A stretch of 64,000 bases of DNA from Zea mays (lineage: Eukaryota; Streptophyta; Magnoliopsida; Poales; Poaceae). The stretch spans positions 194,301,439 through 194,365,438 of the forward strand of contig NC_050100.1 in NCBI RefSeq assembly GCF_902167145.1. The letters are read 5' to 3'. The notes beneath the pieces were generated by a model that was not told the DNA's origin, searched no databases, and saw only the letters and a list, made by a program, of their open reading frames with translations. Below, one piece after another: positions 14,080 to 56,390 of this stretch. Made by a program: the position numbers and the translations under genes. How positions within the stretch are numbered: position 1 is the stretch's first letter; every line of letters begins with the position of its first letter.

Positions 14080-14084
14080 CTAAT

Positions 14085-18194: not shown

Positions 18195-19426
18195 TGAAAG
18201 GGAAATAGGCTCAAACCTTTTCCTAAATGATTTTGGTGGTTGAATTGCACAACACAAATCATTGAACTAACTAGTTTGCTTTAGATTATATGCTCTACAG
18301 GTGCCAAAGTTCATCTACAACTATTCTAAATCGACTGTCCGGAATACCGTAGATTATTCCAGATAGGAGAAGCTTTTTGGAAAAACAGACTAAGCGCGGA
18401 CCGTCCGGGCCCTTGCGGCGGACCGTCCGCGACACTAGGATGACCCTCGGACAGAATCACTGCAAAAACTCAACTCTCCAATGCGGACCGTCTGAAGGAA
18501 AAGCAAGCACCGTCCGAGACCATGCACGGACCATCCGGCCTCAGGCGCGGACCATCCGGTAGGTGAGGAACTGAAAAACCCGAAGGTGATGGGTTCGGTA
18601 AAATGAATTATAGCATCCTCGCGGACTATCCGGGGTGCACGACGGGACCGTCCGCGACTACCTTTATCTGACATCTGACGACGCATTTAATGCATTATAG
18701 TCATTGATATAGCCGTTACTGCTGACCGTTGTGATTTCAGCCGTTGATGTACAAGGGCGGACCGTCCGGACCAGGGGCACGGACCGTCCGCGGTCAGCAG
18801 AATTGGAGCAACGGCTAGGAAGTGGTTGGTGGCTATAAATACAACCCCAACCACCTCCATTCATTTCACCCCAAGCATTCCAATCTTCAACATTCAATAC
18901 AAGAGCTAGCAATCCATTCCAAGACACAATCAAAGCCTCCAATCTCTCCAAATTCCACAATTGAGACAAGTGATCATTAGTGATTAGTGACTTGAGAGAG
19001 AGAGATCCATGTGTTATTTGTCGCTCTTGTCGCTTGGTGTTTGCAATCGTGCTTTCTTCTTCCCCATTCTTATTCTCAAGACACTTGTAATCAAAGCAAG
19101 AGACACTAAGTTTGTAGTGGTCCTTGTGGGGTCTAACTGACCCGTTTGATTAAGGAGAAAGCTCACTCGGTCTAAGTGACCGTTTGAGAGAGGGAAAGGG
19201 TTGAAAGAGACCCGGTCTTTGTGACCACCTCAACGAGGATTAGGTTTGCAAGAACCAAACCTCGGTAAAACAAATCACCGTGTCATCTATTCTTATTCAC
19301 TTGTGATTTGTTTTCGCCCTCTATTTCAGACTCGATTATATTTCTAACACTAACCCCGGCTTGTAGTTGTGCTTAAACTTTATAAATTTCAGATTTGCCT
19401 ATTCACCCCCCTCTAGGCGACTTTCA
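18195..19426 (+). mobile_element. Element B 3' LTR
   Basis: The 1232 bp LTR pairs with 1405-2625, ends GACTTTCA and is followed by TSD ATTTT (19427-19431). The TATA box TATAAATA is at 18834-18841. Small differences from the 5' LTR, including a short indel near 18701, show some age. Confidence 0.94.
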
Positions 19427-19431
19427 ATTTT

Positions 19432-23690: not shown

Positions 23691-25090
23691 ATTTGTTGAT
23701 GGATCATGTGAAGGCTCGTTTGCTCCGGCACACTTTCGGGTCCTCTGCTTTATTTCTTTTTTTGGTACCATTTAATAGACACTTGTAGCTAGTTTGTCTA
23801 TGTCCAAGTTCACTATATTTTTTTTGCATCTAATAGGTCCTCTTGTAAGGTGCCTTCCCCCTTGTGTGCTACTTGTCTTTGGTTTGATGTCCCCTTAAGA
23901 CAACCTTTCATTCTCAATTTTCTTTGTCCGCCAACACTTCTTTTTGTTAAAGGTCCTTTTACTACAGACTCCAGGTACATGAGGCCACTGTGAACGATCT
24001 CTTATATGATAAATGACCCTAGAATATGCCTCTCTAAACTTATTAACTGAAGAATAGGGGTGCACATGGTTTTCTAGCCTTTCACTTCTAAAACTTGTGA
24101 TAACAACAACTACATGCTCACAAGGCTTTCCCGTATGCTGTCACTCTAGACAAGAACACTCCTTTACAGCTAGGTCGATAATATGTCTTTCCTGTTTGGC
24201 ACTATTATCGAACACCTAAGCATGACCTTAGGTTCAACTGCATTATGGTTGGCAAAATGTCTCTATTTAGGACTAGTTTGATGACCAGAGATCACGATAA
24301 AATCTAGGCCTGGGCATTCGGTTCTTCGGTTCGGTTCGGTTCGGTTCCTCGGTTCTTGTAGAAATTCGGTTCTTCAAAAACTAGAACCGAAATAGCAAGA
24401 TAAAGAAATCAGAACCGACTAGTTCGGTTCTCGGTTCTTCGGTTCGGTTCCTCGGTTCTAACCGAACTGTAACAGCCACTCTTAAATTATGAATAACGAC
24501 AACTTTTGTGAGAAATTTCAGCAACATCTCCCCACAAACAACGACAAGTGCACAATGACTATAATTTCATAGATAATACATGGATGATTAGAGGTTCAAC
24601 ATAAGTCAATAACACAACATCCGAAGTTACAAACACATGTAACAAATTGAATCTAATACTTTTGGGTTTTTCGGTTCTTTCGGTTCTTTCGGTTCTTTGG
24701 AGTGCAGAACCGAAAATATCTCATTTATTTCGGTTCTCAAAAAACCAGAACCGAATTTCATAACGGTTCCTTCGGTTCGGTTAGTTCGGTTCCGGTTCTC
24801 GGTTATTTCGGTTCGGTTCCTCGGTTCCGGTTCTTTTTGCCCAGGCCTAATAAAATCTATGAAGAGAGATCCCCTTACTATTCCCATGAATCCCCTTTAT
24901 TTTTCTGTCCACCAAACCAGCCTTTAGTTTGACACCAATTCTTCTCTTTTTCCAAAAGGACCATAATCATCTCTCTAATCTTATCTGCTAGTTCAACAAC
25001 CGGTAGATCCTTGTGATTTTAACTCAGTTATTAAAACACTCAACTAAATTATTATTGATGTAGTCATAATTAATATCAGGATCGAAAGAA
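23690..25090 (-). pseudogene. MULE (MuDR-like) transposase relic, antisense to the glutaredoxin gene
   Basis: On the minus strand, 25090-24858 encodes a segment like the MURA transposase C-terminal half (YINNNLVECFNN, then KDLPVVELADKIREMI) and 24304-23900 encodes a SWIM-type zinc finger (CSCxExQHTGKPCEHVVVV). Several frameshifts and stops are present. A hAT-type MITE with its own 8 bp TSD interrupts the relic at 24305-24849. Terminal inverted repeats were not located. The relic reaches within about 110 bp of the glutaredoxin ATG. Confidence 0.75.
24305..24849. mobile_element. hAT-type MITE rich in CGGTTC
   Basis: This is a 545 bp non-autonomous element with terminal inverted repeats TAGGCCTGGGCA / TGCCCAGGCCTA and an 8 bp TSD ATAAAATC (24297-24304 and 24850-24857). 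The 8 bp TSD fits the hAT superfamily. The subterminal parts on both sides are tandem CGGTTC/GAACCG words. It has no coding capacity and is inserted in the MULE transposase relic. Confidence 0.9.
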
Positions 25091-25201
25091 CACCTCATCT
25101 ATCTGAACTTGCTATTCAGCCACGCAATCACGTGGGTCAGGAAAAGGACGAGAGCGGAAAGGACCGAACGGCTCGGGTTGATCCATCGGATCCGAAGGGG
25201 C

Positions 25202-28200
25202 ATGGCTCTGGTCAGATTGGCGTTTCCCGTGTTCTTCTTCCTCGCAGCGGCGGAGTTCGCGGCGGGGACGCGGTCGCCGTCGGCTTTCGTACAAAACGCC
25301 ATCTACTCCAACCGCATCACCATCTTCTCCAAGACTTACTGCCCGTAAGTTATCCCTTCCAAACACCAACCGCTTCGGCATACCGCTGCCTCTGCTTGCT
25401 CACTTTCGCCCTCGAAATCTGGCGGAAGGTATGGAATCTTTGGGGTCCGCGGTAGCACGGGTAGCCGATTGTATATAAGCGCTTAGTTTAGATCCCAACA
25501 AGTTTCCAGTCTAGCCGCGGTTTTGCTTGGCGGAGGCTTGGTTTATGTCGTGAATTGGATGGATTTTGCAGATGGTCGGGTGCGAATTAGGGCATTTCCT
25601 GTGCAATTGAGCACCAGGAAGTGGAGAATTGGTTGGGTTCATTTCAGTGGTATTGCGGATGTGGTTGCTGTGGTGCAAATCGAGCTGTTTAGCTGCTAAA
25701 ACTGAAAAAAATGGAAGCTAGGAACTGTTTCATGTTTGATGGAGCATGGATTTGGTTCGGTGAATCTGTAGTAACAGTATAACACCGTGACGTTTGCTTT
25801 GTTCTGCAGAGTATGCTGCTCTAGTTTATGGCATAAGATGCTGGTCTACATTCTATTGCGAGTAAATTAGGCTATAGGTTCAGATCATACTGTTGTTGAT
25901 CAGCACCCCATGTGAACTATACAGTGCAGACTATTGTGCAGAACCTGGTTGTTTGATCATAATTCTACTTCCTCTGGAGATAAAGTGGCTTGCTTTTCTG
26001 TATGTCTAATTTTTTGTTTGACCATTGAAAAGCAAACAACCAACTTATGGATCAAATCAGTATTACTGCAAGAAGTATATTTGACCCTTAACACTATTTA
26101 TAAATTAGATAAAGTTTCACGATTAAAACTGACGGACGGATGTTATTGGCCTAGAAATAGCTCGAAAGCATGTAGGCTTAACAACCTTTGCACTAAATTA
26201 TTGTGATTAACGTTGTACTTTATAGTGATAAAAATTAATTGGAATTATATAGTTCCTTTTGTTTTGTAGAAGCAAACTGAGTTAGGCTATAATAATAGAG
26301 ATTGATGATTAGGTTTATATGGTTTCTTTTGTGAATTTTATTAAGGATCAACTAGTAAGTGTCATGAAGTTGATAGACATAAATAGCGACACGTTTCTTT
26401 TGACGTACTATAAAAAGCGCTGGAATAATCAAGATAGTCAAGAGGGTGAATTTGGTGTATCTAATTTTCTTGGACAAATTGTCACACCCGGTTCCAGGGG
26501 GTAGAACCGAGCGCATACCATATGTGTGCCAGGATCCATCTCCACACATATGTTGACGTCACAAGTGTAATATATCAAAAGACAATGCAATAAAGGCGTA
26601 AAGAGAGTATAAAACTTTATTACATCATCTGAAACATTGTGTCTTAAACAAGTATCACATCAAAGTTAAGCGGAAATAAACAACTGGGCAATCTTCCACA
26701 GGAAGTTGACCGGCGCATCGTTAGACTTAGAATTCCTCGTCGATAAATTCTCCATCAAAGTCTCCAGCATCACCCTCTGATCAAAATATTAGCAAGGGTG
26801 AGCTCACTTATGGTCGGGGCTCAGCAAGTGGGGGAAAAATTAATGCAGGTATAACAAGGTGAGGCTAAGGTTGAGCAGTAAGCATTTTAGTTGGTCAACA
26901 TTTTATTATCAACACCTGTCTTACTAATAAGAGTGAATCCCAAATATCCCATTTAAACAAAGGAATATGAATATATCAAAAACACTTAAGTGAAACCACT
27001 TAAGCAAATTATTGGCAGATCATCAGATCTCAATTTATGTCCATCTTTAAGTTCAATTATCATGTGAGGAGTCCAGGTTGCTCATAACCGGGAGCACGAC
27101 TGATATATCAGTTTTACACTCTGCAGAGGTGGTACAACTTTACCCACAAGCCATGTATCCCATCTAGCCCGGGTTGATCGGACCCTTAGACACTGCCGAG
27201 GTGAATGACTAGGGATCCATTATGAGGTTTTCACAAAATACACTTAATACAAAGCAACCCGCTAAGGTTTCTAAGACGATGGTGGTGGCCCCCTGGGTGA
27301 AGTACCTTAGCCAAGAATACGACCCCATGTTAACGTGGGCTGCCAGCACCTACCGCTCCCCCTCTTGCCCATCTTTTAGGTAAGGTGCTAGGCACTAAGC
27401 ATATAGAGCTAATTACCAAAGCCAGAGCCATGATAGCACTCGTGGTTGCACTGTTATCCTGGGTGGTCACTCCATGTTCCAATTAATTTGTAATAAAGTT
27501 ATCTTAACCATCGGGTTAATGTCATAATTGCCAATTAACATTTTTGGAACATTAAAACCAATTAAAGAGTGACATTAAGAATCATTAAGTTGAGCAGTAG
27601 CATAAATCTTGCACAGCTTAATTATTTTCCCAGGTTAAACAAGGAATACAGGTAGTAAATCTAGGAAATCCTTAATTAGGTAAGCCCATCAAATTATGCA
27701 ATATATCGAAAAGTAAACATTGTTATATGCAATGAGTAGGTACAAACAGAATATGCAGAGGGAGAATCCACTTGCCTTGCTCAAAAGCGTCTTGCGGGTC
27801 GTCCTCGAACGAGTTCGGATTCTCTACCACACAGTCCGCTTCTATTATAGTCGCACATCGCACATACAAAAATAAAGTATACACCCATAAATAAACATGC
27901 ACCATTACATGCACATTAACACGTCGCACTAATCACATTTTAATTACGTACTAATCGCGTAAATACTTATGAATTCAATTATAGCTATTAATGTGAATCC
28001 TAATGGTGAATTTAGGAGTGGGTGCAATAAATATAATTTTAACTAATATTAATTTATTTTAACACCATCAATGAAATTAAAAAAATACTTATTATCTTTT
28101 AATACTAATAAATAAATTAATACCTTTTATTCCTTCTAACTCAAATTAGTTAGTATAGCAAAAATGAATTTAATAATATTAATATTCTAAAAATCTACAT

Positions 28201-31200
28201 AAATTGGTAATTGGACTTTTTATACACAAGTGAGGATATTTTTACATAAACTAATATTTTGTTTAGTCTAGAAATCTAAGTGCTCAATTTGCGAACAAGA
28301 TTATTTAACTAGCAAAATCTATTTACCACACTACTGGTGATCTTTTCTCTTTTTCCTTCTAAAAAGAAAATGCTAATAAAATAAATAGATAAATCATCCA
28401 AAATCCTATATTATTCATATGACCTGAGTTCTATATCATTTTTCTAATCCATCAAAAATGCACCTATAATTCTCCAGATAGTTTCTAGAATTTATCGTGA
28501 CCAAAATTGACTATAAATTCTTATCTAGTATTTTTATCACCAACATGTGACTATTAAATCTACGTCATATTTCTCTAAACCAAAATCAACGCGTCGATTA
28601 ACATGAAATAACACGGTGCACTACTAATCGCATATTTCTAACAAATTCCGTAGCGCACACAAATACATAAATCGGAATCACATGTGTTCATATTACAACA
28701 AACAAACTATACAACACATGAATCGAATCGAAAGCACTTTATAAAAATACATAAAATAAATTTGGGTCGTCATCAACCTCGGGTTCGTGCGTGTGACGGG
28801 GATGAATCGACAAGTTTCGACCGGACGGAGAGCGGGGCTCGACTACGGACAGCGAGTACGTGGCTCCGGTGAACTCCGGCGACGAATGGCACACTCCGGC
28901 GAACTCCACGGGCTCCGGCGACGAGCGGCAAACTCCGGCGACGAACGGCAACGAACGGCAACGGCACTAGCGATGAGCGAGGAGTGCTAGAGGGAGAGGC
29001 AAATTCGAGTAGGCAGGAATGGGGATGCTCTGCTGTTCCCTTTTATAGAGAGAGGGAGGGGAGAAGAATGGTCTGCCAGAGTAACGTGGTCTTTATTAGC
29101 CATCACTACATCAGTTTCTTCAAGGAGCATAATGGAGGAGGAATGGGGGAGGAGAAACGGAGGGATTCAAGCTCCATTAATCACAGAAACGGTCGCACGG
29201 GTCACGGCGGTTGCAGACGCGGTGCTCGGGTCGGTCGGCTTGGGCGCTCGCGCGCGGCTGGACGCGCGCTCGACGCGGCATCGGGCAGCGCAGGGGCCGG
29301 CTCGGCGCGGTGGTGCTCGGCCGCCTGGGCTCGCGCGCAGGCGCGACGGCTGGCGCGGCTCGCACGGCCTGGCCAGGGTGCACGCGCGGCGCGCAGGTCG
29401 GGTTCGCCGTCGTGCGGCTGCTGGCGCTCGCACGCGAGAGAGCAGAGAGAGGAGAGAGTGGGAGAGAGAGAAGTGAGAGAGAGAGAAGTGAGGGAGAGAG
29501 AAGTGAGGGAGAGAGAGGAGTGAGCGGCGGCGGCTGCTGGGAAATTGAGCAGGCGCGCGCGCGGCTGGGAATAGGGTTTGGGGATTGGGCCCCTAGGTGG
29601 GCCGGCTGGGTGGTTTTAGGTTTTTTTTTCTTTTCTTTTTTTAAATTTCGAAATTCATTTTTAAAGAACTCTAAAAATCATAAAAAATTACCAAAAATAT
29701 TTATAAATGGAGTACTTGTTTTTAGACTAATAATTACTATAATACTTAATTATTATTTAATTACTAGTATCTCTTTTAAAATGAATTGATATTAAACATC
29801 CGATAAGAAATCAAACGCATGCAAAGAAAACGATGCAAATAAATAATTTAAACACTAAAAAAATCATTACCCTAATTAATATAAAAACTAAATTCATTAT
29901 TTTAATTGATGGCTTTTATGGTGTTACACAAATTAAAATTTAAACACAAGCTTAACTATCTCCGTTTGTTTAATAATGTGTCTAATAATATGATAAAAAG
30001 TTTATATCCTGATTTTCTATTTTATGCTACGATGGTAATTTTAAAGATGTTAATTTTAAAATTGAATTACTCAAATATAAATGTATAAAATAAGTAAAAG
30101 ATCAATGGACTCCTCGATGTTTTGTATTATAGATGTTGTTAATCTTGGAGATGTTATACGTGCATCTCATATGGCACACCGCAGTACATAGTTGGCTTCG
30201 ATCCTATTTGGCAAGTGATTAGAGATGTCAACGGGTACCCGCGACCCAATACTCAATGAGTATTTACTCTATTAAGGTATGTAGTATATGGTCTAAATGT
30301 TCTATCCATGGATCTCTTGTTCGGCAAAAACCTTTACCCAATTAGTAAACAGGTATAAGAACGTTCTGCCCCCACCCATACTCGTTAACCCGTGGGTATA
30401 AAATATCAGGTATAAACTTAGCCCAAAAGTATGAACTTGGGCTTTAGTCATATATCTCTATTTCCTTTTGGGCGATATATAATAGAAGGCTTAATAACTA
30501 TATGATGATCATGTAATAGAACATGTAATGTGTTATGTGTTACTATCCTAGTGTTGCTAATATATCCAATTATCTATGGTGTTCTTGAATAGATAATTAA
30601 ATGATGCTAGAAATTTTGTAATGTATATACTTGACATTTGTATAATGTAGATGTTTAATCTTTGTGGGTACGGATGATCCGACAGGTAACCTATATCCAC
30701 ATGGGTATGGGTATGAGTGTAAATTCATATCCATCGGTGAATATGAGTGACCCGATGTGACTTTTTTTTATCTTGAATATAGATATGAGATACTAATATC
30801 CAATAGTTATTTATCCATTGCCATCTCATGGATGCCCGCGCGACAAGATAAGAGATCATAGTGCTCATGTACGCCATCAATGCCATTTTTTTTAAATGAA
30901 CAACATTTGAAGCCTTTTCCATGAGAAAGAGAAAGGAGAACTAAAATATTTATAAAAGTTCCTTATAGCAACTTCAATAGGAACCCTAATCACATAAATA
31001 AATTAAAATATACGTAGAACTTTAATAAGAAAAGACAGCTCCAACAGGAGCCTTATTTTAATGAGATTCGTGTAAACTTGAAGGGTAGCATATTTGTATC
31101 TCACATAGCCGCAGGCCCGCAGCCGGTATGGTTCGCGCTCGTCCCAGCCACCTCGGATATTTTCGCTTTCTTCTTCGCCGCCACCGGCTCCCATTCCACC

Positions 31201-34200
31201 GCCAAGGTCAGCTTGGTTTCCATCGCCGCATCGCGTGTGCCAACCCCGCTCCCATCTCGACTGTCACCGTCCGAACTCCGAACTCCGAAGAACTGATCCG
31301 TTCTGCACCCGCCCTCTCTAAAGTTCCTGCACTCGTCCCTCTCCAAAGTTCCTGCAGATTCACTTCTTTCCTGCCAGCCAGAGCCATGGTTCGGGAGGAT
31401 TTGTGGTGTGACAGCGCTACAACAAATCTGTCAACGGGGACTCTCATCCTCTTGCTCATAGAAAGAACTGCAGTGTTACAGGTAGGTAATTACCAGAGTA
31501 CTACTACTAAGTAAATCTGTCAAAGGCAGTCATGGCATCCATATCCTTCGCATTAGTACTGGGAGTGGCACACGCACCGCACACATACTACTACACAATG
31601 ATTTCAAGTCGCCTAGTCGCCTGGTCGAACACTGGGACCGACCAGGCGACTAGTCGCGATTAGGCGACGACTAGGGCGACTAGTCGACCCCTAGTCGGTC
31701 CTAGTCGGTCCCTGGTCGTCCTAGACTATTAGCTATACTTATATAGGTATATATATAAATATACCTCTATACATTATATAAATTAGAACAAACAACTAGG
31801 ATAAACAAAGTAACATATTGCTTCATTGTGATTTGTGACTTACCTGAATGGCATAATCTCCAATTCTTCATCTCTCCATCTGTCCATCAATCTTGCAGCC
31901 CTACCTCTTGAGTCCAGGAGGAGGGGCAGGGACGCAGGGGCAGTGGCGCAGTGCAAGAGAAGGGAGAGGCAGGAGGTGCAAGAGAGGAGAGGAGAGGACA
32001 GAGGAGACGTGCAGAGGCCAGAGAGCCAGTGTTGGCGGCTAGGGTAGAATAGGAGAGGAGAGGAGACTTGCAGTCACTATAGATGGGCTAAAAAAGGCCC
32101 AATAACTGAACCCTAGCCAGGACGACCAGATCACACAAGTCGGACGACTAGTCGCCCTAGTCGACGATTAGTCGGACGACCAGGACGACTAGGTTGTCTA
32201 GTCGAGTCGTCCGCCAAATCGTGCACTAAATACCGACCAGCCCGACTAATCGCGATTAATCGCGATTAGTCGGACGACTTGAAATCACTGCTACTACATC
32301 TACTAGTATGTAGTGGAGTGCTTGAAAGGCATAAGACTGCCCGCAGCAGCTGCCGCGCGCTCGCCCCCTCCCCTTGCATGGCGGCTACAGGAGCACGCGG
32401 CAGGCCGTAGCGCGCCCCCCTACGAGGCTCCCCGTGGCGCGGTTCCTTTCTCTCTCCCACTCAATCCAGGGGTTCACTGTTCATCATCTACGACATTATG
32501 TTGTGGGTCCACAAGTAATTATTAGTAGATAAAAAATTGATAGTAGATATAGAGAATGATATTTTATAGTTGTAGTGGGTTATAGAGGGAGTATTTAGGG
32601 AGAACTACTGCGGGAGATGAAAAAATAGGAGGTGAAATTTTGATGATGTGACGCAAAAAGTGATATAGAAGGAAAAATTTAGAGGAAACCGCTGCGGATA
32701 GCCTAAGCGAATTTTTTTCTTCTTCTTCTTGGGTCTACATCCATTTGCTTGTCCACTAGCCGGCTAGTTTACTCCGCTTTTTGGGTTTTCCACGTCTCTC
32801 TACAATTGTGACTGTTAGACCACCTATAATTGTGACTGTTGACCACCTATAGATGCGGTTCAGCTAGCCCTCCGACCCCCCTCTCGAGAGTTCCGCTCCA
32901 CCGCGGCGAAGGAAGTGGCGGAGAAGGAAGTGCCGCGCGGAGGAGCCCCTGTGGATCGTCTTTGAGGTGTCCGGCACCATCCACCTCCACTCCTACCTCC
33001 GCGTCTCCTCGTACAAGACCATCGACGGGCGCGGCCAGCGCGTGGTGCTCACCGGCAAGGGGCTTCAGCTCAAGTCATGCCACCACGTCATCATCTGCAA
33101 CCTGGTGTTCGAAGGAGGCCGCGGGCACGACGTGGATGGCATCCAGGTCAAGCCCGACTCCACCAACATCTGGATTGACCGCTGCACCCTCGCCGACTAC
33201 AATGACGACCTCAAGGTCTTTTCACTCTTCCTTCCCCTGTAAATCTTATTACTATATTGCAAAAAAACTGCTATCCGATGTGGAAATTTTGTAGTAATCG
33301 ATATATTAGCTTCACGATTGAACCAACCAATTAACAAATTACTGCACGCAGATGCCATTTTATGCGGCACGACAAGACGATGCTCATCGGTGCCGACCCC
33401 ACGCACGTCGGCGACCGATGCATCAGGGTCACCATCCACCATTGCTTCTTCGACGGCACGCGGCAGAGGCACCCCCGCCTCCGCTTCAGAAAGGTTCACC
33501 TCTACAGCGACAAGATTTTGGAACCAACAACCACGGCTTGAATTCCCATTTACACATAATTTTAGCTTTTGTTAACATTTAAATATGGGGGAGCAGGGTG
33601 ACGCACTAGTGTTGTCATATGCATCAACTACCGTTTGACTATAAGCTAAAATCTAAGATAGACACGAGACTTATTCTACCATATTACGGTTATGAAAATG
33701 AGGTGCATAATCAACCGTCCTCCCATACCTCAAAAAAATGAAATCTAAATGACAATCTTGACATACCTTTTTATTTATTAGCTTTTGGAGGATCCTTTGT
33801 CATAACCACCATGCACAGCTAAACCATCAAGCTCTGCAAGCTCAGTTAAAATTCCTGCATTCCTTATGAATGGAGATCCTCATTCTCTGTGAATGTCTAC
33901 AAAGTAGATTGACGTGTCTTGCAGCTTTCTAGTATAAGACATACGAGTAGCATTCACAACTAAAAGCTATTGTAATGCTATGGATGAGAGAAATATCTTT
34001 ACATTGGGAATTGTATGTACTATAAATAAAGATACAAATAGAAAACCATAACAACTTTTCTACTACATTTCAGAGAGGGGGCAGATGAAGAGGAGTGGCA
34101 TACAAATGCGGCTCTACCATGAAACAAATGCTGAATTACCTAGGATGAGATGCATACAAATGCAGTGCTTCCGTGAAACGAATATTCTTACAGAAGCGAG

Positions 34201-37200
34201 CTGCAGCATATCAGAATGATGAAAGTCAGCGATCATCCGGGGGGCGGGGCACCGACTGCCATCCTGCGCAGAGCTGTATTATGTCCTTGAGCGCCGGCGA
34301 CGCTGGCTCCATGGTCCGCTGCTGGTAGTAGTCCTCTGGCCTGAAGACAGACCCAGGGTTATCGATCAGGCAGGGCAGCGCGCCATTGAGGAAGGCGTCC
34401 CCTTCCGAGCTGATCGACCCTGCCACCACGTCCTCTTGGTCGCCGGCCTTCTCCGGCATGTACTTGAATACAGTTGTCTTCTTTGGGGGCCCTCCACCTG
34501 CCTCGTAGATGTTGCACTGGGACACGATCTGGGCCTCTACGCCTGCGCAGACGGCGTAGATGCCCCAGCTGCGCGTGTAGTTGTTGTAGAGGTGAACCTT
34601 TCCGAAGCGGAGGCGGGGGTGCCTCTGCCGCGTGTCGTCGAAGAAGCAATGGTGGATGGTGACCCTGATGCAGCGGTCGCCGACGTGCGTGGGGTCGGCA
34701 CCGATGAGCATCGTCTTGTCGTGCCGCATAAAATGGCATCTGCGTGCAGTAATTTGTTAATTGGTTGGTTCAATCGTGAAGCTAATATATCGATTACTAC
34801 AAAATTTCCGCATCGGATAGCAGTTTTTTTGCAATATAGTAATTAGATTTACAGGGGAAGGAAGAGTGAAAAGACCTTGAGACTGTGATGTCTGTGCTCT
34901 GGCGCGTGATGTCGATGAGGCCGTCATCGTAGTCGGCGAGGGTGCAGCGGTCAATCCAGATGTTGGTGGAGTCGGGCTTGACCTGGATGCCATCCACGTC
35001 GTGCCCGCGGCCTCCTTCGAACACCAGGTTGCAGATGATGACGTGATGGCATGACTTGAGCTGGAGCCCCTTGCCGGTGAGCACCACGCGCTGGCCACGC
35101 CCGTCGATGGTCTTGTACGAGGAGACACGGAGGTAGGAGTGGAGGTGGATGGTGCCGGACACCTCGAAGACGATCCACAGGGGCTCCTCCGCGTGGCACG
35201 CCTCCCTCAGACTCCCGGGCCCGTTGTCTGCGCCACGCCGATTCATTCAGGAATCAAAGGATCGGGAAGCGCTGGGCGCGATCTAACTCCTTGTCGTACG
35301 TAACGTACCTTGGAGCGACGTGACGCGGTGGATGGCTCCGTAGAGGCCCCCGATGGCGTGGCGGCCGAAGCCCTCGGCGCCTCCGACCAGCGCGCGGAGC
35401 TTGTGGTCCACGTCCTGGTACGGCATCTCCCAGCCGCCGTGACGCTCGCCCTGAGGGTGAGGAGGGTGTCGCGGCGGCGATGGCGGACGAGGCGGAGGCG
35501 GAGGCGAAGAATCCATGTAGGGCCCCGAAACTCGTGAACCCATAGAACAGAGACGCGGTACGTCCTAAGCTGCCGGCGGCGGTCGAACGCCTCGCCTGTC
35601 TCCTCCCACGACGCTTCCTACCGGGCTACCCGGCCAGATCTGCCGACACGGCGGCAGCGAGGAAGAGTCCGAGCGGGGACAGGGACAGGAGGATGGCGAT
35701 GTACGTGGGCCAGACGGCAGCGGGGGGCCGCGTACACCTTCCGCACGAAGGCCCAGCGCAGGCGCGGATCCTCCTCCTCCTCCGCCACTTCCTTCGCCGC
35801 GGTGGAGCGGAACTCTCGAGAGGGGGGTCGGAGGGCTAGTTGAACCGCATCTATAGGTGGTCAACAGTCACAATTATAGGTGGTCTAACAGTCACAATTG
35901 TAGAGAGACGTGGAAAACCCAAAAAAGCAAAACTAGCCGGCTAGTGGACAAGCAAATGGATGTAGCCCAAGAAGAAGAAGAAAAAAATTCGCTTAGGCTA
36001 TCCGCAGCGGTTTCCTCTAAATTTTTCCTTCTATATCACTTTTTGCGTCACATCATCAAAATTTCACCTCCTATTTTTTCATCTCCCTAAATACTCCCTC
36101 TATAACCCACTACAACTATAAAATATCATTTTCTATATCTACTATCAATTTTTTATCTACTAATAATTACTTGTGGACCCACAACATAGTGTCGTAGATG
36201 ATGAACAGTGAACCCCTGGATTGAGTGGGAGAGAGAAAGGAACCGCGCCACGGGGAGCCTCGTAGGGGGGCGCGCTACGGCCTGCCGCGTGCTCCTGTAG
36301 CCGCCATGCAAGGGGAGGGGGCGAGCGCGCGGCAGCTGCTGCGGGCAGTCTTATGCCTTTCAAGCACTCCACTACATACTAGTAGATGTAGTAGTATGTG
36401 TGCGGGGCGTGTGCCACTCCCAGTACTGATGCGAAGGATATGGATGCCATGACTGCCTTTGACAGATTTACTTAGTTGTAGTACTCTGGTAATTACCTAC
36501 CTGTAACACTGCAGTTCTTTCTATGAGCAAGAGGATGAGAGTCCCCGTTGACAGATTTGTTGTAGCGCTGTCACACCACAAATCCTCCCGAACCATGGCT
36601 CTGGCTGGCAGGAAAGAAGTGAATCTGCAGGAACTTTGGAGAGGGACGAGTGCAGGAACTTTAGAGAGGGCGGGTGCAGAACGGATCAGTTCTTCGGAGT
36701 TCGGAGTTCGGACGGTGACAGTCGAGATGGGAGCGGGGTTGGCACACGCGATGCGGCGATGGAAACCAAGCTGACCTTGGCGGTGGAATGGGAGCCGGTG
36801 GCGGCGAAGAAGAAAGCGAAAATATCCGAGGTGGCTGGGACGAGCGCGAACCATACCGGCTGCGGGCCTGCGGCTATGTGAGATACAAATATGCTACCCT
36901 TCAAGTTTACACGAATCTCATTAAAATAAGGCTCCTGTTGGAGCTGTCTTTTCTTATTAAAGTTCTACGTATATTTTAATTTATTTATGTGATTAGGGTT
37001 CCTATTGAAGTTGCTATAAGGAACTTTTATAAATATTTTAGTTCTCCTTTCTCTTTCTCATGGAAAAGGCTTCAAATGTTGTTCATTTAAAAAAAATGGC
37101 ATTGATGGCGTACATGAGCACTATGATCTCTTATCTTGTCGCGCGGGCATCCATGAGATGACAATGGATAAATAACTATTGGATATTAGTATCTCATATC

Positions 37201-40200
37201 TATATTCAAGATAAAAAAAGTCACATCGGGTCACTCATATTCACCGATGGATATGAATTTACACTCATACCCATACCCATGTGGATATAGGTTACCTGTC
37301 GGATCATCCGTACCCACAAAGATTAAACATCTACATTATACAAATGTCAAGTATATACATTACAAAATTTCTAGCATCATTTAATTATCTATTCAAGAAC
37401 ACCATAGATAATTGGATATATTAGCAACACTAGGATAGTAACACATTACATGTTCTATTACATGATCATCAAATAGTTATTAAGCCTTCTATGATATATC
37501 GCCCAAAAGGAAATAGAGATATATGACTAAAGCCCAAGTTCATACTTTTGGGCTAAGTTTATACCGGATATTTTATACCCACGGGTTAACGAGTATGAGT
37601 GGGGGCAGAACGTTCTTATACCCGTTTACTAATTGGGTAAAGGTTTTTGCCGAACAAGAGATCCATGGATAGAACATTTAGACCATATACTACATACCTT
37701 AATAGAGTAAATACTCATTGAGTATTGGGTCGCGGGTACCCGTTGACATCTCTAATCACTTGCCAAATAGGATCGAAGCCAACTATGCACTGCGGTGTGC
37801 CATATGAGATGCACGTATAACATCTCCAAGATTAACAACATCTATAATACAAAACATCGAGGAGTCCATTGATCTTTTACTTATTTTATACATTTATATT
37901 TGAGTAATTCAATTTTAAAATTAACATCTTTAAAATTACCATCGTAGCATAAAATAGAAAATCAGGATATAAACTTTTTATCATATTATTAGACACATTA
38001 TTAAACACACGGAGATAGTTAAGCTTGTGTTTAAATTTTAATTTGTCCAAGAAAAATTAGAGACACCAAATTCACCCTCTTGACTATCTTGATTATTCCA
38101 GCGCTTTTTATAGTACGTCAAAAGAAACGTGTCGCTATTTTATGTCTATCAACTTCATGACACTTACTAGTTGATCCTTAATAAAATTCACAAAAGAAAC
38201 CATATAAACCTAATCATCAATCTCTATTATTATAGCCTAACTCAGTTTGCTTCTGCAAAACAAAAGGAACTATATAATTCCAATTAATTTTTATCACTAT
38301 AAAGTACAACGTTAATCACAATAATTTAGTGCAAAGGTTGTTAAGCCTACATGCTTTCGAGCTATTTCTAGGCCAATAACATCCGTCCGTCAGTTCTAAT
38401 CGTGAAACTTTATCTAATTTATAAATAGTGTTAAGGGTCAAATATACTTGTTGCAGTAATACTGATTTGATCCATAAGTTGGTTGTTTGCTTTTCAATGG
38501 TCAAACAAAAAATTAGACATACAGAAAAGCAAACCACTTTATCTCCAGAGGAAGTAGAATTATGATCAAACAACCAGGTTCTGCACAAGTCTGTATCATG
38601 TGGACTGACTACTTTGTTCACAGACTTAACAAGCCCAACTGTCTTGAGCTGGCCAGTAGCCAGTTGGCCTGTTACTTGCAGAGTGGATTTGAACTGATTT
38701 GTTATATGGTTGTACCTAGACACGCACACCTTGGTTACATGTGAAGTTATTTTAGTGTTCTTTGTTTCTGATTTAGTTTTCATGATAGAGGCTATCGATG
38801 AGTTTGAATTTATTAGACTGGTTTCTTCTATTCTGTGGTCAGAAGTACAGTAGGCATCATACACCATGGTCCACAAGATTATATTCATATGCCATTTTCA
38901 TGTTTTTATTGCAGCATACGAAGCCTAGATGTTTGGTGTATCGATTTGTAATATGTATTTATCAGAAAAAGGGTAAATACAGGGAAGGCCTTTTTTGTTT
39001 TTTTGGTAAATATGCTTCCTACAAGGATTGTGTATATTGAGCAGGTATATCTTGTAGTGCCCTTGTCGTTATAATTCTAAGCATTTTTTTGTGAAAAGCC
39101 AACTTAAGGACCTTCTCAAAACTCACCCCTGTTGAATCAGAGAACAGTGAGAATCCCCCTTCAACATGCCCTCACCTTCCCTGCCTACCGTGTTGTCAAT
39201 GGCTATTCAAGGGAAGGGGATCGTTCCTTTTTTTTATCTTGATGCACTTTGTTTGTTTTATTCTTACTTTTAGCTTGTCTCATTCTTCTCTCCAATGTTG
39301 CTACTGTGCCCTTTCTGTTATGGGCACGATGTTGTCTGTTATTTCTTCCACCACCACCAGAACAAAGCCTTTTCGTTCTAAGCAAGTTCGGGTATGCTAT
39401 ATTTGAAACCTAACAAAAACTACAAATCAAGGTTCAGTCACGTGGACAGCTATTTTTCATTTGCTTTTATTCAAGTCTAAGTCTTTGGGTGCATTCCATT
39501 CTTTCAAGTCTGCTTTTACTGCATCTTTCCATGCCAACTTCGACTTCCCCCTGTCTCTCTTCCCATTTACTATAACACCTTAGTATTCCACTACACACTG
39601 GTGCCTCTGGATGTTTCCATTGGATATGTCCAAACTATCTTAATCGATGTTGCATAAACTGTTTTTCAATTGGTGATACCTCTAACCTACACATATTATC
39701 GATTCAGACACGATCACTTCTTGTATGGCCACAAATCCAACGTAACATATGTATTTCTATAGCACTTATCTACTGAACATGACGTCTTTCGTAGACTAAC
39801 ATCCTGCATCATACAACTTAGTAGGTCTAATTAATGTTCTATAAAACTTTCCTTTTAGCTTATGTGGTATCCTCTTGTCATATAGAACGTTAGAGACTTG
39901 ATGCCACTTCATCCCACCATGCTTTGATTATATGGCTAACATCTTCATCAATATCCCATTTTTCTGTAGCATTGATCCTGAATACTGAAAGACATCCTTC
40001 TTAGACACTGCTTGACCTTCCAAACTAACATCTCCTTCCTCGTATCTAGCAGTGCCGAAGTCACATCTCATATATTCGGCGTTAGTTCTACTGAGTCTGA
40101 GTCTAAACCCTTGTGTGTTAGTGCTTCCATTTCTTTGAAATCCAATGTGCTAGCCACCTAAACCAAAAGAACATTATGGTGGTTGTTGCTTCATTAGAGA

Positions 40201-41020
40201 AGCATTTTACTTTCATCAAGCGTTCTCCCTTTTCATTTCCCGTATCATGTCTTGCTTGGATATGGATCTTTGTCTCCATTACTTGGGTTACTGCTGTAGA
40301 CTTAATGCAAAGATACACCGTTTTTCCACGTATTCACGAATATATATTGGTACTGCTATAGAAGCACAGATAATGCTTAAGCTCTAGTAAGGTTATCAGA
40401 TAATGTGGTGGTATACTGGTATTGATGCTAGGTGAAGTCAAGTCCTGATTCTGTACCCAAAGACACTTCTTTTCATGGTCCGATTATTTTTCCAGTATTA
40501 AGTACTTGTAGTGGTTACTTTATTGCTAAATGCTTATTTTGCTCCCTTTCTCACAGCTACTCCATGCGTGCTAAGCACATATTTCGAGACCTTAAGGAAG
40601 ATCCATATGTTGTTGAACTAGATACCCGAGGTAATCATCTTTGATTTACATGCAAATTCAATGCAATCACATACTTTGTTGGTTTTGTCTGCAAGAGTTG
40701 CAAAGCCTAATGTACACGTGTCATGCAGTGGATGGGCGTGACATTCAAAGTGTTCTCCTGGACCTAGTTGGGCGTCGTACTGTGCCACAGGTGTTTGTCA
40801 ATGGACAGCATATTGGTGGCTCAGACGGTTAGCGTTTAAACCTTGAGTGCTCTTAAACCGTCTAGCTGCACTGTTGTTTCAATGTAACTATTTAAGCATA
40901 CTGCTACCTTGGTTGATACCAACAGCCAACATTTTTGTTTGCTCAATAATTGCAGATACAGTAAATGCGCTTTCAAATGGACAGCTCCAGAAACTTCTCG
41001 GGAAGAGTCAGTCACAATGA
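25202..41020 (+). CDS. Glutaredoxin with signal peptide, CPYS active site, 4 exons
   Basis: This is a thiol-disulfide oxidoreductase that uses glutathione to reduce protein disulfides or mixed disulfides. Exons are 25202-25344, 40557-40630, 40729-40827 and 40956-41020. All introns are GT-AG and the joined frame gives 126 aa ending at TGA 41018-41020. Residues 1-22 form a hydrophobic signal peptide, so action in the secretory pathway is likely. The active site CPYS is at residues 47-50, TVP (glutathione-site cis-Pro) at 90-92 and GGSDD at 102-106. It resembles the small signal-peptide class I plant glutaredoxins (GRXC3/C4-like), with Ser in place of the second active-site Cys. Intron 1 splits the active-site Pro codon and is 15,212 nt, holding the pectate lyase inverted repeat, a solo LTR, a MITE and a LINE relic. 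Whether this long intron is spliced efficiently is unknown. Confidence 0.88.
26480..29928 (-). mobile_element. Solo LTR, 3449 bp, Tekay/Prem1-like gypsy
   Basis: A single LTR runs on plus from TGTCACACC to GGTGTTACA with perfect 5 bp TSD CAAAT at 26475-26479 and 29929-29933. No PBS, PPT or coding region accompanies it, so it is a solo LTR left by LTR-LTR recombination. A TATA box on minus (29047-29040, TATAAAAG) suggests the minus strand is the element's sense strand. The 28760-29560 part is very GC-rich, and the left half contains no clear ORF. The length matches the long LTRs of maize Tekay/Prem1, from memory. The corresponding site in the right arm is empty. Confidence 0.92.
30220..30827. 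mobile_element. Possible old hAT-like MITE, copy in left arm
   Basis: Imperfect terminal inverted repeats (TAGAGATGTCAACGGGTA and TATCCATTGCCATCTC) bound a stretch with GGGTA/TACCC words. It occurs in both arms (30220-30827 and 37155-37754), so it was present before the duplication. No clear TSD was found. Confidence 0.4.
31128..31514 (+). other. Unrecognised exon-like ORF upstream of the left pectate lyase copy
   Basis: This is a 128-codon open frame identical to the one on minus at 36854-36468. It lies in the same orientation as, and upstream of, the pectate lyase copies. An internal ATG at 31385 in good context (GCCATGG) opens a 32-codon stretch ending at a GTAGGT donor-like site near 31482. 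It may be a gene fragment or first exon, or a chance frame in a GC-rich segment. No family recognised. Confidence 0.3.
31596..32290. mobile_element. hAT-type MITE in left arm only
   Basis: This is a 695 bp element with TIRs CAATGATTTCAAGTCG / CGACTTGAAATCACTG (one mismatch) and 8 bp TSD CTACTACA at 31588-31595 and 32291-32298. Both ends are rich in GACTAGTCG words. It has no coding capacity. The right arm carries one uninterrupted CTACTACA at the matching place, so the insertion followed the inverted duplication. Confidence 0.92.
32930..33506 (+). pseudogene. Pectate lyase pseudogene, left inverted-repeat copy
   Basis: This is a partial copy of the gene at 34226-35543. Exon 1, intron 1 and the start of exon 2 are missing: a junction near 32923-32930 joins upstream sequence directly to codons for (C)[10 protein letters not shown]. 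Exon 2 then follows, but a 38 bp deletion at about 33211 removes the segment after DDL. Intron 2 and the exon 3 start (about 33351) are present. The copy stops at 33506 in mid exon 3, where the inverted repeat ends. It also has a missense change, DYDDG to DYNDD, in the conserved acidic segment. It cannot encode a lyase but could supply transcript complementary to the intact copy. Confidence 0.92.
33507..34225. other. Inverted-repeat spacer, no gene seen
   Basis: This is A/T-rich sequence between the left arm break and the 3' end of the intact pectate lyase gene. Its right part is probably the 3' untranslated region of that gene. It would form the loop, together with the gene's last about 360 coding bases, of any hairpin transcript. 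No ORF or transposon ends recognised. Confidence 0.5.
34226..35543 (-). CDS. Pectate lyase (polysaccharide lyase family 1), 3 exons
   Basis: The enzyme cleaves de-esterified pectin by calcium-dependent beta-elimination, normally in the cell wall. Exons on minus are 35543-35309, 35227-34876 and 34739-34226 with GT-AG introns, giving 366 aa. The N-terminus is short and Pro-rich with no clear signal peptide. The family core starts at about residue 39 ([13 protein letters not shown]). Calcium-site acidic segments are at about 154-157 (HDVD) and 169-184 (WIDRC to DDGLID). The catalytic-Arg region is at about 233-245 ([13 protein letters not shown]). These features fit the plant pectate lyase subgroup lacking the long N-terminal extension. 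The gene lies wholly inside glutaredoxin intron 1, in antisense, and faces a damaged copy. Expression is uncertain because of the inverted repeat. The start codon is the first ATG of the exon 1 frame. Confidence 0.88.
36468..36854 (-). other. Unrecognised exon-like ORF upstream of the intact pectate lyase
   Basis: This is the mirror copy of 31128-31514, with the same 128-codon reading frame. It lies about 0.9 kb upstream of the pectate lyase ATG on the same strand. It could be an untranslated leader exon, a captured gene fragment or chance. Confidence 0.3.
37155..37754. mobile_element. Possible old hAT-like MITE, copy in right arm
   Basis: Mirror copy of 30220-30827 with the same imperfect terminal repeats (GAGATGACAATGGATA and TACCCGTTGACATCTCTA). 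No TSD recognised. Confidence 0.4.
39440..40130 (-). pseudogene. LINE (L1-type) reverse transcriptase relic
   Basis: The minus-strand translation shows the C-terminal part of a grass non-LTR retrotransposon polyprotein across several frames. Segments in order include [71 protein letters not shown] and LERMECTQ. Stops and frameshifts are frequent, so it is an old 5'-truncated remnant. It lies in glutaredoxin intron 1, between the inverted repeat and exon 2. No poly(A) tail or TSD was resolved. Confidence 0.8.
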
Positions 41021-41555: not shown

Positions 41556-41695
41556 TGTTAGAATCCTGTTTAGGGTTTGGGGTTCTCCCCTGTGTAATTA
41601 CTCTCCCACTCCTGTGTAATGGGCAAGGTCCAGTTAACTCAAGTCTATTAATCCAACACCTAACCCTAAGATAGGGTTAGTGTTTTATTCTAACT
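41556..41695 (+). mobile_element. Element E 5' LTR (short-LTR copia)
   Basis: The 140 bp LTR runs from TGTTAGAATCC to CTAACT, with TSD CATAA at 41551-41555. The PBS TGGTACCAGAGCC starts at the next base (41696). It pairs with 57926-58061 but differs at many positions and by small indels, so the insertion is old. Confidence 0.88.
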
Positions 41696-41919
41696 TGGTA
41701 CCAGAGCCAGTTTACTCTCTTCTTCCCTTCCTCCCACCCCTCCGCCACTGTAGACGCTGCTACAGACGCTATCGGCACTGTTCATCATCGGTCGCACCCT
41801 TCCCTCCTCGTCGGCCTTGTCCTCTAGCCCCAGCCACTGGCTCCCCCCTCCTCTCTACCCTCCCCGCCGACATGTATCCCCTGTCTCCCTAGCTGCCGCG
41901 CTGGGCGGGCATAACCCCC

Positions 41920-44900
41920 ATGGATCCGGGCGCAGTCGCCATCAGCGTCTACGTGACCAGCGTCGCCATCAACGCCCCTCTGGCCGCCGCCGATGAACTC
42001 GTCGTGGGCCTAGCCACCAGCGCTGCAGTTGGGTTGACCCCGCAGCGAGTCTACCGACCGGTAGGCCGTCGCCACCACCTCGCAGGTCGCGCTACTTGGC
42101 TTCCACTCCTCCAACGGTCTCCGCATCACCCCTGGTGTATGCACCGCGCCCCTCCGCACCAGCACGCTCGCCGGGGACGACCCCCCTTCACCCTCGCCCT
42201 GGAGTAGGAGCGCGCCATGGGCGCCACCCTGAGTGCACAGATGGCCACCGCGCAGCGTCTCATCTTCGGTCACCCTCCAGTCGCTTAGGTGGCTCCTCCA
42301 GTCACTCCTGAGGCCCCTAGCCTCTAGACTTGACGCTGACCATATCGCCGCTCTCCACGCTCAGGCCGTCGGGCTGCATAACATCCGGCCCCTTGTGTCC
42401 ATCGTGTTGGACCCGACGTCCTCCCCTACCCTCGTTGGCGGGGCCAGGTCCTCACCCTTCGGCAATACACTCTCGCCAACCACGTTCTCGACGACCTCGT
42501 CTCCCCACCATCTCCATCCTGGTGCCTGATGGTGATGGACAGTGTGGTGCCCTCGTGGCTCCACGACACCATCACCATTGAGCTACAGGGCATCATCCAC
42601 GACCAGGCGGACACGGGCCGACACGCGTGGCTCGCTCCCGAGGAACAGTTCCTCGGGAACCGGGAGCTTGGCCACACCACCTTGACACCTAGTTCTACCA
42701 GTTCTCTCAGGGGGATCTCTCCGTGAGGGAGTACTGACGTCAGATGAAGTGCATGGCGGACTCCCTCCATGACCTCGGCGAGTTGGTCGCCGACCGCACC
42801 TTAGTGTTGAACCATATGTGTGGCCTCAGCCCCCACTACGGCCACCTGAAGGCTCTCATCAAGAGGACCGCGCCCTTTCCCATCTTCCATGCCATGCCGA
42901 ACGAGCTTCTCCTTGAGGAGCTCACCATGGTGACTAAGGCACCCGCTCTGGCCCCGGCCCCGGCCCTTTACAAAACTCCTCCCGGTGGTCAGACGCCCCC
43001 GGGGGGTAGGTCCCTCGTCCTACGTCGATCGGGGCCCCTACTCGACCTCCTCCCGCGGCCTAAACCCTAAACCCTATAGTGTGCCTCCGATGCCACCCTC
43101 TGGCGTGCCACCGGCGTCGCCAGCTCCGCCCCAGCTCCCGACCCCGGGGACCCCACCTCGAGTCCCTGGTCCCCAATGGATGGAGGATGGGACCACGCCT
43201 CCCTCGCCGTCGCTTTCAGCACCATGGCGATGGCCCCACCCTCATCTGACTGGTCATCGACTCCGATGCCTCCTACTACACCACCCCCACTGCATGCTCC
43301 CTATCTCGCTCCCACACCCTCATTCCTCCCATCCCTCCTCGATCGTCGTTGGAAACGGTTCCACTATGCCGGTCACCTTAGTAGGGGCCTCTATTTTTCC
43401 TAGGTCGTTCTATCTCAACGATGTTCTCGTAGCCCCACACATCACCCATAATCTCCTTTTTGTTCCTCGATTCACCACAAACAATTCTTGTTCCATTGAG
43501 TTTGACCCCTCTCCACTTGGCATCGTCATCTTGACCACCTAGGATCCGACGTCATGACCAAGATTACCAGCAGTTTATATCCTTCATGTAGTAGGGGATA
43601 TTTTGAGGGTCTCTATCATGCTTGATAGTTAGCCCGACATACTCGTCTCCCATTTATTACTTCTCGGGCTGAGCAGGCTTTTGACCTGGTTCATTGTGAT
43701 CTCTAGACCTCCCCTGTACTTAGTCTCTCTGGTTATAAATACTATTTGGTGATTTTGGATTATTTTCCCATTTTCTCTGAACTTTTCCTCTTCGGTTGAA
43801 GTTCGACACGTTCACCATCCTCACACACTTCTTCGCCTGGTTTCTACCTAGTTTTGTTGCCCGGTCCATGCCCTGCAGTGTGATAATGGTCGCGAGTTCG
43901 ACAACCACGCCACACATTCTTTCTCTCACTAATGGTGTCCAGTTGCGTCTCTCGTGACCCTACACCTCTACCCAGAACGGCCGGGCCGAACACATGATTC
44001 GCACCACCACTAATATGATCCACTGGCTTCTCTTCCAAGCGTCTCTCCCTGCCAGTTACTGGGTAGAGGCCCTGCACACCGCCACACACATCAACCTTCT
44101 TCCCTCGAAGGCGGTGATCCACCCTACTCCATACTTCGCCCCATACGGCACAACCCCTCTTACGACCACCTTCACGTGTTCGGTTGTGCCTGCTATCCTA
44201 ACACTTCCGCCACCGCTCTTCATAAGCTATATCCTCGCTCCACTCGCTACCTCTTCCTTGGCTACTCTCCTGACCACAAGGGGTATCACTGTCTTGACCT
44301 CGCCTCGCCTCGCACCGCATCATCTCTCGTCTTGTCGTCTTCGACGAAGATATGTTCCCCTTGCTGGCTCCTCCCCACCCACCGATCTCGACTCCCTCCT
44401 TGAGTCTGATCCGGTTACCCCTCCACCCCATGCGTCCTGCCATGCGTCGTTGCCTACACCACGTGTGGCCTCGACCCCTCCGCTCGCGCCACGTGTGGCC
44501 CCGTCGACCTTGCCTGCGACACGCGCGGCCCTGTCGTCCCTATCTGCGCCTCGCGCGGCCTCGTCGACCACGCCTACACCACGCGCAGCCCTATTGACCC
44601 CTCCCGCGCCATGCACGGCCCCGTCAACGAGCGCGGCTCGCTTCGTCGATCCAGCCCTCGTCTACCACTGCCGCGGGCGCGCTACTCCCTCGGCACCCAT
44701 TGACCTAGGCTCGTCGACAAGCGCGGCTCGCTTCGCCGAACCCACCGTCGTCTATCACCACCATGAGCCGACCATGCCCGCGGCCCCCCTGATGTCCCGG
44801 CAACCCATTCCGAGCCGTCTGTGTACCACTCGGTCGCCTTTCACCGCGACCCCAGGCACGTCCACCCGATGGTGACTCGACGTGCCGCCGGCATTCTCCG

Positions 44901-46193
44901 GCCTGTCGACCGGCTAATTCTGGCCGCTGATAGGACTGTCACTCCTCCGGACACCTCCCCGGTCCCCTCCTCCGTTCACACCGCCCTCGTCGACCCACAC
45001 TGGCGTCGCGCTCTAGAGGAGTCCGCAGCCCTGCTGGCCAACCACACCTGGGACCTGGTGCCGTGTCCATCGGGCACCAACGTGGTCATAGACAAGTGGC
45101 TCTTTTGCCACAAGCTGACCTCGGATGGCTCCCTTGACCGCTACAAGGCTCGTTGGGTCCTTTGGGGCTTCACCCAGTGCCCTGTAGTGAACAACGACGA
45201 GACCTTCAGCCCCGTCATCCAGTTCGCCATCGTTCGCGCCGTCCTCTCCCTCGCCCTCTCACGAGATTGGGCGATCCATCAACTCGACATTAAGAATGCC
45301 TTCCTCCACGACACTCTGATGGAGACTGTCTACTGCATCTAGCCCACCGGCTTCGTCGACGTCGCTCATCTGGATCTGGACTGCCGGCTGAACTGCTCCT
45401 TGTATGGCCTCTAGCAGGCGCCACGGGCGTGGTACAGTCGTTTCGCCTCCTACTTGGCCTCCATCGGCTTCATCGAGGCCAAGTCAGACACCTCCCTATT
45501 CATCTACCGGTATGGCAACGACACCGTCTACCTCCTGCTCTACGTCGACGACATTATGCTCACGACAACCACTCCCAAAATCCTACAGCGCACAATCGTC
45601 GCCCTTCAGCGGGAGTTCACGATGTAGGACCTGGGGCCTCTCCAACACCTCTTTGACATCACCGCCGAACTTCGGCCTCAGGGTCTCTTCCTCCACCAGC
45701 GCCAGTACGCCATCGACATCTTGGAGCGGGCTAGCATGCCCGACTGCAAGCCCTGCTCTACACCCGTCGACACTCAGGCGAAGCTCTCTGGGGACGACGG
45801 GCCCCCGATCGCTGAGGCGACGTCCTATCGGAGCCTCATCGGTGCGCTCTAGTACCTCACCTTCTTCAGGCCTGACATCGCCTACACCGTCCAGCAGGTG
45901 TGCCTGCATATGCACACCCCGCGGGAGCCCCACCTCACCGCCCTCAAGCGGATTCTCCGCCACATCCGGTTATGCTGTGTTCCTGGACGCCAACCTCGTC
46001 TCCTGGGTCGCCAAGGGTTAGCCCGTCGTCTTCTGCTCTAGCGCAGAGGCCGAGTACCACGTCGTGGCCAACGACGTGGCAGAGGCCTCCTGGCTGCGCT
46101 AGCTGCTCCACAACTCCCTTCAACGCGCCACACTCGTCTACTGCGACAACGTCAGCACGGTCTACCTCTCCGCCAATCCTATGCAGCGTCAGC
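41920..46193 (+). pseudogene. Element E gag-pol, heavily decayed
   Basis: This is a GC-rich copia polyprotein in many broken frames. The gag part at about 42700-42950 has the UBN2-like segment with MADSLHDLGE and ALIKRTAPFP. An integrase remnant lies around 43990-44340 (WVEALHTATHINLLPSK, RYLFLGYSPDHKGYHC). RT is at about 44990-45960: WRRALEESAALLANHTWDLV, IHQLDIKNAFLH, a QAPRAW preceded by a stop, and YVDDIML at about 45541. The RNase H start (AEAEYHVVANDVAEASWLR) runs to 46193. Premature TAG codons at about 45340, 45413, 45627, 45850, 46018 and 46101 largely sit where this family has Gln. It is certainly inactive. Confidence 0.85.
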
Positions 46194-48821: not shown

Positions 48822-48829
48822 TTTATATA
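48822..48829 (+). promoter_or_regulatory. TATA box for the antisense gene of element D
   Basis: TTTATATA lies about 140 bp upstream of the antisense ATG (48967) in the plus orientation, opposite to the retroelement's own transcription. The spacing fits a plant promoter with a leader of about 110 bases. Confidence 0.55.
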
Positions 48830-56294: not shown

Positions 56295-56390
56295 CGTCCC
56301 GGGTTGGAGAGGTTATTGGAGACTGCCCATCTGGAGCTTGACGGGAAGCTGTTCGTCAACACGCAGCAGGCCCCTACCTGGCGCGCCAAC

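Follow-up and report, generated by a model that had tools for sequence, protein, structure and literature searches.

A long inverted duplication of a gene can yield small interfering RNAs (siRNAs). Mu killer of maize is an inverted partial gene duplication beside a host gene, and hairpin RNA formed by read-through has been proposed there. However, the silencing individuals made two short antisense transcripts unable to form large hairpins, and antisense read-through from the flanking genes was judged disproved, the authors still allowing some contribution of a long hairpin (the passages of PMC3440606 on these transcripts). The soybean I locus contains an inverted repeat of CHS genes with a spacer, which feeds trans-acting siRNAs; these were measured, and the clusters form 10.91-kb perfect inverted repeats (relevant part of PMC3804491). 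Long inverted repeats of rice, with kilobase arms and a spacer, vary between lines and were found via small-RNA abundance, as quantitative trait loci (QTL) for small RNAs; the passages on them speak of no host intron (PMC7649420). Introns that give rise to siRNAs have been named sirtrons (part of PMC5545994). Here we describe an inverted repeat with pectate lyase (PL) sequence in intron 1 of a glutaredoxin (GRX) gene of Zea mays. It is situated in a stretch of contig NC_050100.1 comprising 64,000 bases, with no N, the whole of which is called the window below.

The original prediction for this DNA was that every GRX pre-mRNA contains the repeat as a hairpin, diced to small RNAs that silence PL genes in trans. 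Its precedent, that long inverted gene duplications can yield siRNAs, stands. Mu killer, the soybean I locus and the rice repeats are the nearest kinds found, and the anatomy here matches them as far as the sequence tells. Long inverted arms, nearly identical to each other, enclose a spacer, which is the arrangement of a hairpin RNA (hpRNA) locus. Unlike at Mu killer, the duplicated gene is a host gene located in an intron, one copy retains the full frame, and the left arm is interrupted; moreover, the present locus is known from sequence alone, also in comparison with the soybean I locus and the sirtrons. It would resemble the latter as a putative siRNA-giving intron, the hairpin being, we presume, far larger. 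The repeat is in intron 1, and the evidence for expression of the host gene consists of database proteins. We also take the locus to resemble nested or transposed genes of grasses, in that the intron of a host gene accommodates a gene with introns of its own in the opposite orientation (here a complete, predicted PL gene model), but PL has an inverted partner, which they lack. By anatomy, the locus would be assigned to a known kind, an inverted gene duplication with a nested gene, and we would not file it as a silencing locus. No literature on this locus or gene was found among the matches listed, judged by titles and abstract openings.

We consider it quite probable that the locus is a recent inverted duplication of a transposed PL gene in the GRX intron, with hairpin potential, and that the hairpin is likely a minor by-product and not a working link by which GRX silences PL. 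The predicted arrangement of inverted arms sharing about 3.4 kb around a spacer of about 1.08 kb is confirmed both by self-BLAST, where four colinear inverted pieces link the arms (Table 1), and by alignment, with 98.9% identity in aligned columns; the repeat finder yields an 833-nt inverted pair at 100% (after rounding). Both arms lie wholly within intron 1. PL sequence is indeed found in each of them, as had been claimed, but most of each arm is not PL: the bulk is DNA from upstream of PL, the gene itself being confined to the inner 0.6 kb or so of the paired sequence. Likewise, the arms are inverted but not continuous, as the left one is split by transposon-like insertions of 3.4 kb and 0.7 kb. 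The right-arm stretch 35200-35774 (about 0.6 kb) has no counterpart in the left arm.

Alignment of the arms without the two insertions (trimmed arms) gives 3,386 columns free of gaps, of which 37 are substituted (25 transitions, 12 transversions), and 11 gap runs, a 38-nt deletion among them. The Kimura two-parameter distance (K2P) is 0.011; it is 0.0086 for the non-PL part of the arms versus 0.023 for the PL part. Because of the low distances over the whole and over the non-PL part, we judge the duplication to be recent. The full arm alignment features 35 perfectly pairing runs of at least 21 nt, giving 2,555 perfect 21-mers, with the longest run of 683 nt; this pairing is far above the chance expectation. 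In principle, a hairpin is possible for any RNA crossing both arms.

The right PL copy matches PF00544 (1.3e-26). Its closest match is the Panicum virgatum protein P0001, 'probable pectate lyase 4' (89% over 91%, the best of the 120 matches listed out of 865). Sequences with solved structures yield 23 distinct matches, mostly named bacterial-type pectate lyases, with VexL and the pollen allergen Jun a 1 at the top. The 3' end of the gene falls within the spacer. The left copy is a truncated pseudogene: exon 1 is absent, exon 2 has lost its 5' end and a further 38 nt, and exon 3 its 3' part. The right copy has a full frame. The right arm's paired stretch includes 479 of the 1,074 PL coding bases, and 441 are able to pair. 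The coding differences between the arms number eleven (six synonymous, five replacement), and at codons 170, 172 and 233 the left copy is the odd one out (compared by eye).

Both insertion sites of the left arm are empty in the right arm. The insertions postdate the arm duplication, or else were not copied with the arm. From its TG...CA ends and the 5-bp duplication we take the 3,449-bp insertion to be like a solo long terminal repeat (LTR); no internal repeat was seen in it. The 695-bp insertion, with its 8-bp duplication, presumably resembles a miniature inverted-repeat transposable element (MITE) of the hAT type.

The best-kept part of both arms contains an open frame of 128 aa, at 36468-36893 (minus strand) and 31089-31514 (plus strand). 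Its right-arm copy has no Pfam match at E up to 0.5. The protein search provides two matches, one identical (marked as encoded in the window; two short contigs) and the other at 71% identity (32 contigs of at most 4,193 bases). The frame could be a 5' exon or a repeat.

The host gene has a complete four-exon frame of 126 aa with GT-AG at all three introns, and the protein matches Pfam Glutaredoxin PF00462 (3.8e-17), in agreement with the predicted GRX gene hosting the repeat in its first intron. Full-length relatives from grasses include several at 83-90%, P0121 (90%, three members) being one of them. The homologues considered were the best 120 of 874 matches for GRX and the best 120 of 865 for PL, with proteins clustered at 90%. 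Four of the listed GRX entries, P0164, P0165, P0166 and P0195, share exons 2-4 with the window at 100%, and none of the four includes exon 1; the exons identical to Zea mays P0165 and P0166 constitute 62% of the GRX query. Since a loose tblastn search with the recorded forms gave mostly noise, exact string matching was used instead. Splicing of the window letters reproduces P0165 and P0166 exactly, and P0164 except at residue 1, where the code gives V and the record M. The coding parts of P0164, P0165 and P0166 start at 40432, 40373 and 35480, respectively, all inside intron 1 and beyond the left arm. P0195, 'unknown [Zea mays]' (76 aa), starts inside exon 2. Thus, according to these records, GRX exons 2-4 have forms whose coding start is beyond the left arm, and because of that the claim that the hairpin is part of every GRX pre-mRNA is weakened. 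Exon 1 at 25202 may still be used, given the clustering at 90% and the fact that the recorded forms are known from their coding parts. In P0166, recorded as 'Grx_C3-glutaredoxin subgroup I [Zea mays]', the first splice donor comes immediately after the bases complementary to the PL start codon, so that the two genes share a few nucleotides, each on its own strand.

Table 1. Positions of the inverted repeat, the two genes, the recorded GRX forms and the LTRs in the window
Feature	Position	Strand	Identity	Details
Left arm	25927-33506	+		self-BLAST, repeat finder, alignment; PL pseudogene copy at 32930-33506
Right arm	34585-38593	-		5' part of PL exon 3, exon 2, exon 1, about 3.1 kb upstream of the PL start
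Spacer	33507-34584 (1.08 kb)			3' part of right PL exon 3 (34226-34584) and PL 3' flank
Inverted piece 1	25927-26480/38040-38593		98.4%	self-BLAST
Inverted piece 2	29928-31595/36387-38046		98.9%	self-BLAST
Inverted piece 3	32291-32928/35775-36394		96.2%	self-BLAST
Inverted piece 4	32930-33506/34585-35199		91.7%, gaps counted	self-BLAST
3,449-bp insertion	26480-29928			TG...CA ends; 5-bp duplication CAAAT (26475-26479/29929-29933)
695-bp insertion	31596-32290			terminal inverted repeats CA(A/G)TGATTTCAAGTCG; 8-bp duplication CTACTACA (31588-31595/32291-32298)
PL gene, full frame	34226-35516	-		exons 35309-35516, 34876-35227, 34226-34739; 357 aa; GT-AG introns
GRX exon 1	25202-25344	+		ends ...KTYCP; similar exon 1 residues in grass GRX proteins, e.g. 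P0121
GRX intron 1 (15.2 kb)	25345-40556	+		GTAAGT...CACAG
GRX exons 2-4	40557-40630, 40729-40827, 40956-41020	+		spliced frame
P0166 first coding exon	35480-35516	+		antisense to PL start codon; donor GTAGGG
P0166 second exon	39274-39391	+		after AG, before GTATGC; joined to GRX exon 2
P0165 first coding exon	40373-40386	+		donor GTAAGG; 'Monothiol glutaredoxin-S6 [Zea mays]', 83 aa
P0164 retained 3' end of intron 1	40432-40556	+		120 aa; later introns spliced out; 15 contigs of at most 1,303 bases
Outer Copia LTRs	1404-2628/18194-19429		94%	
Inner Copia LTRs	5247-6474/12902-14079		93%	

PL and GRX are on different chromosome-length contigs in all six grasses that list both proteins on such contigs (P. 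virgatum, U. decumbens, E. coracana, L. rigidum, B. distachyon, T. urartu); in E. coracana, the locus tags are 3B and 2A. U. decumbens has an extra GRX entry on a 93-kb contig, and for L. rigidum and T. urartu, whose GRX entry is on two contigs, the longest alone was considered. In Stipagrostis and Digitaria the PL and GRX contigs also differ, but they are shorter, and these genera were excluded from the count. This distribution suggests that PL probably entered GRX intron 1 secondarily. From the observed anatomy, divergence, insertions and match to recorded proteins, we infer the following history and use of promoters. PL, located elsewhere in other grasses, would have moved into the intron on the branch leading to maize (or to a plant very near it). 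In a later and recent event, the 5' two thirds of PL together with about 3 kb of upstream DNA would have been copied tail-to-tail in inverted orientation. The left copy would then have been broken by deletions and by the LTR-like and hAT-like insertions, with the right copy retaining its frame. At least some transcription of GRX exons 2-4 would now use first exons located in intron 1 past the left arm, including one that opposes the PL start on the other strand; an RNA spanning the two arms would form a hairpin, likely as a minor by-product. We consider it most likely that the inverted duplication is at present young and largely neutral, that one copy of it is decaying, and that the neighbouring GRX gene has internal first exons.

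The recorded forms may also be read in another way. Upstream DNA of PL, duplicated in the left arm, would drive a plus-strand RNA, antisense over the right PL gene and spliced to GRX exons 2-4, with an effect in cis, both as antisense on PL and as a new GRX promoter. The first coding exon of P0166, antisense to the PL start codon and canonically spliced towards GRX exon 2, is consistent with this, as is the left arm holding PL upstream DNA that points inwards. However, P0166 is known from its coding part and may rest on a gene model, and P0165 and P0164 start elsewhere; we regard such a cis effect as unlikely. That the inverted copy acts as a second PL promoter aimed at the host, one plus-strand unit being antisense over PL and a GRX first exon at once, seems rather improbable; if true, PL silencing and GRX expression would be coupled via one RNA in cis, with or without the hairpin.

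We give a small chance to the originally proposed chain in which GRX transcription produces an intronic hairpin, diced to small RNAs that silence PL genes in trans. The perfectly paired 21-mers and the paired PL coding bases speak for it, and so does the surplus of transitions at CG sites where the arms are PL sequence. The rice repeats are probable precursors of small RNAs (part of PMC7649420), the soybean CHS repeat yields siRNAs acting in trans (part of PMC3804491), and in maize genes the presence of miRNA-like structures goes along with small RNAs and methylation (part of PMC10760457). Nevertheless, exon 1 is missing from all four entries that match exons 2-4 at 100%, the two insertions interrupt the left arm, and silencing of paralogues is weakened further by the fact that just 441 nt of PL coding sequence can pair. 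The proposal would need an RNA that runs from exon 1 across 15 kb, including the LTR-like insert of 3.4 kb. An analogy, and no more than that, comes from rice, where genes whose introns are heterochromatic give prematurely ended transcripts if OsIBM2 is impaired (part of PMC7145194).

A hairpin that maintained methylation is expected to leave differences between the arms that are rich in C-to-T changes at CG and CHG sites. LTRs are generally methylated, and three LTR pairs are available in the window. The non-PL arms have 14 transitions to 10 transversions versus 82 to 8 in the three LTR pairs (p 4e-4; p 0.006, 0.005 and 0.02 for each pair singly). CG sites account for 1 of the 14 transitions in the non-PL arms versus 45 of the 82 in the LTR pairs (p 9e-4). 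Per CG site, transitions are seen at 1/191 in the non-PL arms as compared with 35/118 (p 2e-15) and 6/121 (p 0.015) in two of the LTR pairs, and at CHG sites the raw counts are 4/156 versus 9/87, 9/85 and 7/190. The non-PL arms thus lack an LTR-like excess of transitions, which would argue against their long-standing methylation. Gene conversion could erase differences between the arms, but it should not shift the ratio of transitions to transversions. The paucity of C-to-T decay in the non-PL arms also counts against silencing in trans, as hairpin transgenes were reported to be invariably methylated in the repeat; that observation concerned transgenes, and designed mismatches prevented the methylation (the passages of PMC9263138 on these constructs).

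There is a very slight chance that the whole 12.7 kb block is a single transposon (a foldback element, Pack-MULE or Helitron) that brought PL in. The block is bounded on both sides by the arms, and PL is elsewhere in other grasses, as such an origin would have it. However, no target-site duplication was seen at the junctions 25926/38594 (compared by eye), and a search of 25000-41000 with one pattern for a Helitron end, a GC-rich hairpin before CTAG, found none at a block border, the two hairpin-CTAG sites both being inside the 695-bp insert 31596-32290. Finally, although palindromic joins are a known assembly error, and misassembly had been raised along with the original prediction, a mirror copy absent from the plant is barely credible, because the arms differ by the 37 substitutions, the 11 gap runs, 0.6 kb without a counterpart and two insertions, with target duplications, that only one arm has.

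Several points weigh against a recent duplication of a transposed PL gene with the hairpin as a by-product. The contigs of the grasses were told apart by size, which indicates location only indirectly; polyploidy occurs in several of these species, and the comparison covers the listed copies, with no sorghum or close relative of maize among them. Clustering at 90% may conceal a full-length maize GRX, for instance within P0121. The right PL copy may be decaying too, because its residues at codons 81 and 222 have been replaced, those of P0001 and P0007 being retained in the left copy (compared by eye). At CG sites, the non-PL arms (1/191) do not differ from the youngest LTR pair (4/258, p 0.40), and their CHG rate (4/156) is not far below the 7/190 of that pair. 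In the PL part, CG transitions reach 7/92 sites versus 1/191 in the non-PL arms (p 0.002); this excess, together with the higher divergence (0.023 vs 0.0086), would fit methylation of the PL part, where the 11 transitions and 2 transversions do not differ significantly from the non-PL arms (p 0.15).

With the recent duplication as the preferred reading, the locus would provide a clean young case of gene movement and inverted duplication in an intron, alongside a changed first exon of the host and hairpin potential. If small RNAs are present, a new hairpin locus could be observed near its start; for now the locus serves mainly as a caution that hairpin anatomy by itself does not demonstrate silencing.

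In the window there are no matches to RNA families at the gathering score and no tRNA genes. Upstream of the GRX gene, two nested Copia elements occupy 1404-19429, with gag and RVT_2 domains in internal frames. A Copia remnant is situated at 41556-58061, with RVT_2 at 44767-45339 and apparent short end repeats (41556-41695/57926-58061, 86%). It encloses an element with 1,352-bp LTRs (46186-47537/56383-57734), which differ by 15 transitions and no transversions. An aldehyde dehydrogenase-like gene lies downstream of GRX on the minus strand (58300-62610); one of the four frames tried matches PF00171 (60486-60869), and the remainder was recognised by eye from open frames. A tandem pair of about 107 bp with 97% identity is seen at 63718-63924.

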